Source: Halomonas sp. TD01 (GTDB taxonomy: Bacteria > Pseudomonadota > Gammaproteobacteria > Pseudomonadales > Halomonadaceae). From it: DNA of 64,000 nucleotides. The stretch is from positions 682,001-746,000 of the forward strand of contig NZ_OV350343.1 in assembly GCF_923868895.1 (NCBI RefSeq), in the 5' to 3' direction. How positions within the stretch are numbered: the stretch's first letter is position 1; each line of letters opens with the position of its first letter. Shown here one piece after another: positions 9,761 to 63,666 of this stretch. The position numbers and the translations under genes are program-made. The notes beneath the pieces were generated by a model. That model searched no databases, was not told where the DNA came from, and saw only the letters and a list, made by a program, of their open reading frames with translations.

Positions 9761-11103
<1,343 letters not shown>

Positions 11104-62301: not shown

Positions 62302-62612
62302 TTAGCCCATAAACTGACCGCCGTTAATATCAATATTGGCGCCAGTAATAAAACCTGACTCTTTATCTGCTAAGAACGTGACCAGACGACCAATCTCCTC
62401 CGGTGTACCGTAACGCTTCAAAGATCAACACCCGATAACGCGATGTTGTCATAACCGGCGGCTTGCTGAGTTTCCAGCCAGGTTTTGGCTTTCTCAGGAT
62501 TATGATATCCCGCGACTACCAAATAACCCGCATCCGCCAATGAATGACAAATTGACGTTCCGATTCCACCAGTTCCACCAGTTACCCAGGCGACGGGGGC
62601 TTGATTGGCCAT
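62302..62612 (-). pseudogene. Acetoacetyl-CoA reductase (PhaB-like SDR), internal deletion
   Basis: The N-terminal 64 codons read MANQAPVAWVTGGTGGIGTS and continue through AGYHNPEKAKTWLETQQAAG, the cofactor-binding part of PhaB-type reductases. They stop at a TGA (SGVDL*). Immediately after, in another frame, is an intact C-terminus: KRYGTPEEIGRLVTFLADKE then SGFITGANIDINGGQFMG and a stop. A whole PhaB has about 247 residues, so roughly 145, including the catalytic Ser-Tyr-Lys, are missing and the junction is out of frame. GGGAGGTAGTCA before the ATG shows it was a real gene. A functional PHB reductase may exist elsewhere. Confidence 0.88.
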
Positions 62613-62846: not shown

Positions 62847-62874
62847 TTGACATAGCGTAAAAAATGCGTAGAAT
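62847..62874 (+). promoter_or_regulatory. Strong sigma-70 promoter of the initiator tRNA gene
   Basis: TTGACA (62847-62852) and TAGAAT (62869-62874) with a 16-bp spacer, followed by a GC-containing ACGCCAC discriminator typical of stable-RNA promoters. The tRNA begins 15 bp after the -10 box. The gap 62613-62846 between this promoter and the phaB remnant has no gene; it contains a small AAGCGC/GCGCTT hairpin at 62684-62699. Confidence 0.85.
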
Positions 62875-62888
62875 ACGCCACACGTTGA

Positions 62889-62951
<63 letters not shown>

Positions 62952-62965
<14 letters not shown>

Positions 62966-63666
62966 AACATAGAGAAAGCCGTTACCGAAAGGTAGCGGTT
63001 TTTTTGTGTCTGAATTTTGTGAAGAAAGCTCACAAAAAAATATCGACTCAGTTCTTCACCACCCTAGGAAGGTCATCGGTTCGCTTTTGTTTTAACATCG
63101 GCGGTCCCCGCTACCAAACATAGAGAAAGCCGTTACCGAAAGGTAGCGGTTTTTTTGTGTCTGAATTTTGTGAAGAAAGCTCACAAAAAACATCGACTCA
63201 GTTCTTCACCCCCCTAGCAAGGTCATCGGTTCGCTTTTGTTTTAACATCGGCGGTCCCCGCTACCAAACATAGAGAAAGCCGTTACCGAAAGGTAGCGGT
63301 TTTTTTGTGTCTAAATTTTGTGAAGAAAGCTCACAAAAAACATCGACTCAGTTCTTCACCACCCTAGGAAGGTCATCGGTTCGCTTTTGTTTTAACATCG
63401 GCGGTCCCCGCTACCAAACATAGAAAAAGCCGTTACCGAAAGGTAGCGGTTTTTTGTGTCTAAATTTTGTGAAGAAAGCTCACAAAAAACATCGACTCAG
63501 TTCTTCACCACCCTAGGAAGGTCATCGGTTCGCTTTTGTTTTAACATCGGCGGTCCCCGCTACCAAACATAGAGAAAGCCGTTACCGAAAGGTAACGGCT
63601 TTTTTGTGGCTGAATTTTTTGAAGAAAGCTCACAAAAACATCGACTCAGTTCCTCACCACCCCAGG
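62952..63666 (+). repeat. Tandem array of about 150-bp units derived from the tRNA-fMet 3' end
   Basis: Unit starts (GGTCCCCGCTACCA) lie at 62952, 63103, 63253, 63403 and 63552, a period of 149-151 bp. Each unit has the tRNA 3' acceptor end with CCA, a terminator hairpin with a T-tract, a second hairpin TTTTGTGA-N7-TCACAAAA (63015-63037 in the first unit), and ATCGACTCAGTTCTTCACC. The first four units end with a second tRNA-like piece, AAGGTCATCGGTTC, joined to the next unit by a T/A-rich GCTTTTGTTTTAACATCGG in place of AAATC of the tRNA. The last unit ends before this piece. Units are near-identical, so recent homogenisation is likely. No protein of note is encoded. Confidence 0.95.
62979..63005 (+). 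terminator. tRNA-fMet terminator (first copy of array)
   Basis: CCGTTACC-GAAA-GGTAGCGG forms an 8-bp stem (one G-T pair) with a GAAA tetraloop followed by seven T, 14 bp after the tRNA. The same hairpin recurs in every repeat unit downstream; in the last copy the arm is GGTAACGG, a fully complementary version. Confidence 0.9.

Follow-up and report, generated by a model that had tools for sequence, protein, structure and literature searches.

Tandem copies of a damaged initiator-tRNA 3′ half behind tRNA-fMet in Halomonas sp. TD01, and similar rows with a recurring insertion in other genera

Results

Array anatomy

The window analysed here, a 64,000-nucleotide stretch of the Halomonas sp. TD01 genome, holds one tRNA gene according to ARAGORN, a tRNA-Met(cat) that is followed directly by a tandem array (Table 1). 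TRF places the repeat at 62951–63666 with a period of 150, 4.8 copies, and 96% matches, and this, together with the unit lengths, confirms the nearly five units of 149–151 bp described in an initial annotation of the window. Units 1–4 share 96.7%–98.7% pairwise identity, and unit 5, which ends before its tRNA-fMet 3′ half is finished, shares 89%–91% with the others. The genome is one contig of 4.14 Mb in which unit matches occur at three places, all within this array, ruling out the dispersed repeat that the initial annotation had named as a test of its interpretation. Its single tRNA-fMet gene holds for the window, although a second one lies in the genome at C1:843506.

A terminator made of a stem, a GAAA loop, and a T run is visible in all five units, with a fold of −17.4 kcal/mol in unit 5; a simple terminator scan omitted the ones in units 1–4 from its output. 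The promoter scan listed no promoter-like site inside the array. Comparison with the tRNA and the folds of units 1 and 5 bear out the previously proposed tRNA derivation and reiterated terminators. In units 1–4, the tRNA text GGTTC-[AAATC]-CGGTCCCC has become GGTTC-[19 nt]-CGGTCCCC; this replacement had been noticed, but the insertion in the anticodon arm had been overlooked. Judged by eye from relatives, the T-loop change may consist of an insertion of about 11–12 nt plus substitutions.

Because relatives show less damaged stages, it follows that the window unit joins a terminator to a damaged 3′ half of tRNA-fMet interrupted twice, by an insertion in the anticodon arm and another in the T-loop; the window copy is a derived, twice-damaged form. 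By eye, the 36 bases before the T-loop insert are identical to the tRNA in G071, and copies in G039 and G046 retain part of the tRNA 5′ half, while G334 has nearly full-length copies with damage mainly in the anticodon arm. No unit in the window or in the loci of 14 relatives gave an Rfam tRNA match; being no longer recognised as tRNA, these units qualify as tRNA pseudogenes. An exception from outside this set is one full-length Shewanella variant, called tRNA-Leu by ARAGORN. The Rfam covariance model of RtT RNA had no match in the window (E up to 1) or in the 14 relatives' loci, and tRNA apart, no Rfam RNA reached its gathering score, four weak matches (E 0.3–0.8) falling far below theirs.

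Table 1. Features of the tRNA-fMet locus, in window positions
Feature	Position	Strand	Basis
Sigma-70-like promoter of tRNA-fMet (TTGACA, 16 nt, TAGAAT)	62847..62874	+	promoter scan
tRNA-fMet, anticodon CAT, parent of the repeats	62889..62965	+	ARAGORN, Rfam
Unit 1, 151 bp: terminator, spacer, tRNA-fMet 3′ half with two insertions, CCA	62966..63116	+	
Terminator of unit 1: stem, GAAA loop, then T run	62977..63006	+	fold, −15.0 kcal/mol
Degenerate tRNA-fMet 3′ half of unit 1, TCGACTCA to CCA	63043..63116	+	comparison with tRNA and relatives
Start of anticodon-arm insertion, unit 1: CTCA-GTTCTTCACC... (GTTCTTCAC), counterpart of RCTCTTNATAA	63051..63059	+	
T-loop insert of unit 1: 19 nt replacing AAATC, after TTC	63083..63101	+	sequence, relatives
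Unit 2, 150 bp	63117..63266	+	sequence, TRF
Unit 3, 150 bp	63267..63416	+	sequence, TRF
Unit 4, 149 bp	63417..63565	+	sequence, TRF
Unit 5, incomplete (101 bp): terminator and spacer, followed by neither T-arm nor acceptor end	63566..63666	+	
Terminators of units 2–5	starts ~63128, 63278, 63428, 63577	+	unit 5 folded, rest by eye

Distribution among relatives

At least 18 of the 70 same-genus genomes parsed carry one or more units at this tRNA, a lower bound because, of the 48 genomes with an element-type terminator (see below), nine were followed to the distal end (G008, G015, G019, G020, G027, G029, G031, G049, and G065). The 70 exclude G032, G042, and G045 (tRNA at a contig end, no match, or the other locus only), and units seen with a loose pattern in G006 and G012 dropped out under the pattern behind this count. 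Copy number ranges from four and a part in the window to three in G061, at least three in G049, two in G010, and one each in G022 and G044. In Halovibrio variabilis (Halomonadaceae; locus L152), a similar unit shares the T-loop insert of the window units.

Three strict patterns combined found units in 12 of 390 genomes of the order sample, including our own; singly they matched 8, 8, and 11 genomes, and G329, one of the 11, was set aside because its insertion is of another kind. Reversed-pattern controls for two of these patterns gave none among the matches listed. A full tRNA-fMet lies just upstream of the units in G073, G118, G153, G388, G077, G364, G334, and G174; in G029 they lie at the far side of an element, and in G415 and G438 the arrays begin at a contig start. 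In a class sample of 369 genomes (few per family), a related pattern matched two, our own and G753, the latter as a pattern match only. A scan of one genome per species returned 88 matches in 60 stretches, 72 of them followed by an acceptor end and 67 no more than 1,200 bases from a tRNA-fMet (in 43 of the stretches). Its genera include Shewanella, Psychromonas, Motilimonas, Pseudoalteromonas, Catenovulum, Paraferrimonas, Marinobacterium, Neptuniibacter, Amphritea, Balneatrix, Motiliproteus, and Acinetobacter, among which the NCBI taxonomy assigns Shewanella to Alteromonadales, Neptuniibacter to Oceanospirillales, and Acinetobacter to Moraxellales; stretches in Bacteroidales, Paenibacillus, Tessaracoccus, and an archaeon look like chance. 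Scan and order sample overlap in at least five genomes (L211 = G334, L197 = G174, L166 = G364, L176 = G415, and L186 = G153). To call an array behind an initiator tRNA unfamiliar, as had been done from the window alone, was thus too weak, since arrays recur at tRNA-fMet in several families. A DUF349 gene, assigned by Pfam in the window and by eye elsewhere, lies upstream of the tRNA in family f1 genomes and in three f6 genera, and this suggests one locus inherited by both families; the neighbours in f2 and f37 differ.

Several of these loci have peculiarities of their own. The units of G438 (L106) have no terminators and end before a rimP-like gene, that is, at the other tRNA-fMet locus (by eye). 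At about 2401–3935 of L180 (Marinobacterium stanieri), a HipB/HipA-like gene pair, recognised by eye, stands between two tRNA-fMet copies with units. At L131, L149 (G153), L099 (G073), L157, and L181, a repeat-like stretch follows GTTC in the variant T-loop, at the position of the Halomonas-type T-loop insert.

Integration at this tRNA

A different terminator, of element type (GGCAGATCAG-like), lies directly behind the tRNA in 48 of the 70 genus genomes and is followed in several by short direct repeats and an integrase gene (loci L034–L083). A Phage_integrase match (Pfam) was found in one protein near the tRNA in each of G027, G001, and G016; an 875-aa protein near the end in G029 had no Pfam match, its weak recombinase match falling below the cut-off. 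That all 48 carry integrated elements stays an inference, because in some of them (G003, G014, G064, G070, and G017) the sequence behind the terminator seems to run on into the chromosome. G027 and G029, each assembled as a single contig, have a tRNA 3′ part on the same strand as the full tRNA and about 98 kb and 77 kb from it, respectively; their units are found beyond the element, at the chromosomal end, adjoining a YbbN-like frame. The integration target suggested by the initial annotation stands in part, in that elements of this genus use the tRNA-fMet as a hotspot for integration; the layout is not uniform, however, because G065 (one contig) has units after tRNA 3′ ends at three places. 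The point at which the element end meets the tRNA remnant varies among L006, L014, L026, L030, and L084 (CTCATAACC, then GTCATCGG or GTCCCC), as though several genomes had lost a portion of the attachment site by deletion. Among the matches listed for a plasmid search, none spanned more than 15% of the query, and the aligned part was the tRNA gene.

Concerted evolution of the units

Units evolve in concert within genomes. Identity within arrays is 94.6%–97.3% in G061 and 96.0%–98.7% in G049, whereas window unit 2 is 86% identical to a unit of G061. Unit T-arms mostly match the local tRNA (for example, GTCAG/CTGGC, GTAGG/CCTGC, GTTGG/CCAGC, and ATCGG/CCGGT), the T-stem being that of a real tRNA of the same locus in 66 of 112 variant copies. 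Among the 46 that differ, 38 changed on one side or at different pairs and eight on both sides of a pair, three of the eight coming from G118; locus L198, also in these counts, is probably spurious. All five T-stem pairs, counted by script, are formed in 80 of the 112 variants, but among the 46 whose stem departs from that of the local tRNA the number is 14. As read from these sequences, the T-stem pattern looks like conversion and decay more than selection for a stem, and the scarcity of intact pairs would speak against a conserved tRNA-like fold acting as an enzyme decoy. RNAalifold returned no structure for an alignment of 101 variants, which is uninformative because even the T-arm was missed.

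Mean divergence in 36 arrays was 0.28 and 0.34 in the flanks, 0.05–0.10 in the tRNA-derived core, and 0.16 in the rest of the insert, a contrast between low core and high flank values that exchange by way of the common core would be expected to give. The Shewanella locus L193 has half copies behind terminators next to real tRNAs, as well as a full-length copy that resembles a real–variant chimera. At L173 and L193, variants lie between real tRNAs and therefore are probably transcribed.

Shared insertion and motifs

Across 93 variants, the anticodon-arm insertion after CTCA has the consensus RCTCTTNATAA, and the stretch from CTCA to GAAGG is 15–23 long versus 6 in the tRNA. Since the species scan forces RYKCTY after CTCA, the positions following CTCA are ascertained there, and the first six consensus positions are partly forced; the ATAA that follows is not. 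When the pattern allowed any insertion content, 23 of 24 matches in the order sample nevertheless began [AGT][CT][GT]CT[CT], and 40 of 96 copies, mostly from the same arrays, fall outside the scan pattern. An RCTCTTNATAA-like insertion is common to genera of different orders. A second, looser motif, approximately RTGYCTGAA, follows the T run in several genera; its consensus comes from the 81 of 155 scanned units with an upstream T run, its A positions being supported by 40–47 of the 81. A strict form sought in six genomes matched four times in G061 (three in the array) and three times in G073 (in another array), with no match in the other four, our own included, and one for the reversed control.

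Discussion

tRNA pseudo-copies are usually dismissed as junk or integration debris. Here, many genera from several orders have a half-tRNA copy with a similar insertion next to tRNA-fMet, and the tandem arrays of such copies seem to recombine with the intact gene. We consider it somewhat more probable than a coin toss (about 0.55) that the array consists of tandem, promoterless relics of the tRNA-fMet 3′ half, separated by terminators and multiplied by recombination, with no dedicated function. A segment with the tRNA 3′ part and a terminator would have been duplicated behind tRNA-fMet, and the duplicate would then have gained the insertions in the anticodon arm and T-loop and lost recognition as a tRNA. 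Unequal crossing-over and gene conversion would have multiplied the copies and kept them alike. The array would be mostly silent because every copy starts with a terminator, and its role, if any, might be that of a string of back-up terminators, rare read-through yielding short half-tRNA RNAs. Relics kept alike by recombination would account for most of the observations, though less readily for the shared insertion: a neutral relic should have lost an insertion that is similar across orders, which weakens the relic reading. The recurring RTGYCTGAA-like motif and the probably transcribed Shewanella variants also count against it. Exchange can explain likeness within arrays. It cannot explain the likeness of the insertion between orders, which is therefore the main argument for function or repeated origin.

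Function is the premise of one alternative, that the units are a conserved regulatory RNA. The tRNA-fMet 3′ half would present the boxA-like RCTCTTNATAA in an enlarged anticodon loop, and NusB-S10 loading in read-through or tRNA-operon transcripts would alter termination, or the factors would be titrated. We regard this as unlikely. Its appeal is that the motif recurs across orders and that its core CTCTT resembles the gamma-proteobacterial boxA, GYTCTTTAANA (PMC5725501). At least 8 of the 11 boxA positions are matched in 72 of the 93 variants (28 at 8, 34 at 9, and 10 at 10, with 21 below 8), and the five window units match 8 or 9. A search of our own genome with GYTCTTTRACAA gave 15 matches (one for the reversed control), 13 of them with the sequence GCTCTTTAACAA, and six GCTCTTTAACAA pairs lie 1.9–2.3 kb apart, as in rRNA operons, to judge by the spacing; the T-loop insert of the genus also mostly begins GCTYTT. 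However, none of the 93 variants matches all 11 positions, the best reaching 10, and a strict boxA was rejected as an exact match for variants and window units alike. T occupies position 7 in 40 variants, A occupies position 9 in 16 and position 1 in 37, and C occupies position 6 in 18; positions 7 and 9 disagree with boxA. Moreover, pairing-preserving change is scarce in the variant T-stems, the units are patchily distributed, and the boxA reading arose after the motif had been seen, the scan that yielded most variants having forced part of it. Less probable again is the specific proposal of an order-spanning, tRNA-fMet-derived RNA class in which RCUCUUNAUAA, displayed by the enlarged anticodon loop, would let Nus factors dock and thereby link transcription of the initiator tRNA to the control of termination.

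The units might instead be scars or miniature integrative elements, which we also consider doubtful. An element integrating at the tRNA would bring its own 3′ half and terminator and leave, on its other side, an element end together with the host 3′ half; reduced to about 100 bp, this would make up one unit, and repeated integration would build the array. The hotspot status of tRNA-fMet and the agreement of unit T-arms with the host tRNA fit such an origin, as do the mixed terminator types among the units of G065, G070, and Marinobacterium stanieri and the occurrence of the same architecture at tRNA-Phe in two f2 genomes (G073 and G118). There (L253, L250, and L254), a terminator stands behind the tRNA-Phe, along with a tRNA-Phe 3′ end whose T-loop carries an insertion, and G073 has tandem copies with tRNA-Phe-like 3′ ends at a contig start. 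Yet, of 10 loci whose element ends were read, nine have a tRNA remnant with CTCATAACC and no insertion; the remaining one, L027, is missing that part. Similarly, a phage collection gave no match to the unit, four viral contigs matching the variant pattern have neither tRNA-fMet nor its half beside the match, and among the loci read, incidentally and non-systematically, no large element ends in a variant.

An assembly artefact or chance repeat is very improbable. Some draft arrays do begin at contig starts (G415 and G438), but arrays occur in independent assemblies, some of them single-contig (our own genome, G027, and G029), which contradicts the artefact that the initial annotation had named as a refuting case, and the reversed-pattern controls speak against chance.

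The closest known parallel is the rtT repeats behind E. coli tyrT, which include the tRNA 3′ end (RtT RNA family, RF00391). The initial annotation drew this comparison aptly: the window array, too, is a tandem repeat behind a tRNA and includes its 3′ end. The array here differs in standing on an initiator tRNA and in having a longer tRNA part with loop insertions and one terminator per unit. Tandem tRNA clusters are familiar as well, among them E. coli metZWV and the tRNA-Pro/His repeats of Photobacterium. The tandem tRNA-fMet clusters with pseudo-copies in Shewanella likewise have one tRNA in tandem and signs of recombination among copies, whereas the window has one real copy, all others being damaged and behind terminators. 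RtT RNAs are described as being released from tRNA-operon transcripts and as having a modulating effect on the stringent response (PMC4986893), and two Salmonella Paratyphi A strains differ in rtT copy number by a 175-bp repeat (PMC2658671). The tRNA gene fragments left by integrating elements (PMC9897764) are also partial tRNA copies at a tRNA used for integration; the units here, in contrast, are short, tandem, and homogenised, with an insertion absent from the junctions read.

The recurrent array is a real variant of the rtT-like kind, for which we found no description in the open-licence literature searched, and the similar rows with a recurring insertion hint at an undescribed, possibly functional kind of tRNA-derived repeat. 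If selection keeps the short insertion in an apparent pseudogene, this would be a new tRNA-derived RNA; alternatively, some process makes the same damaged copy repeatedly.

Two further features of the window were recorded. A fragment of a short-chain dehydrogenase, 64 aa, lies at 62418–62612, where several relatives have a frame of about 249 aa, and a perfect CTGGTT repeat of 10.5 copies occupies 10761–10823.
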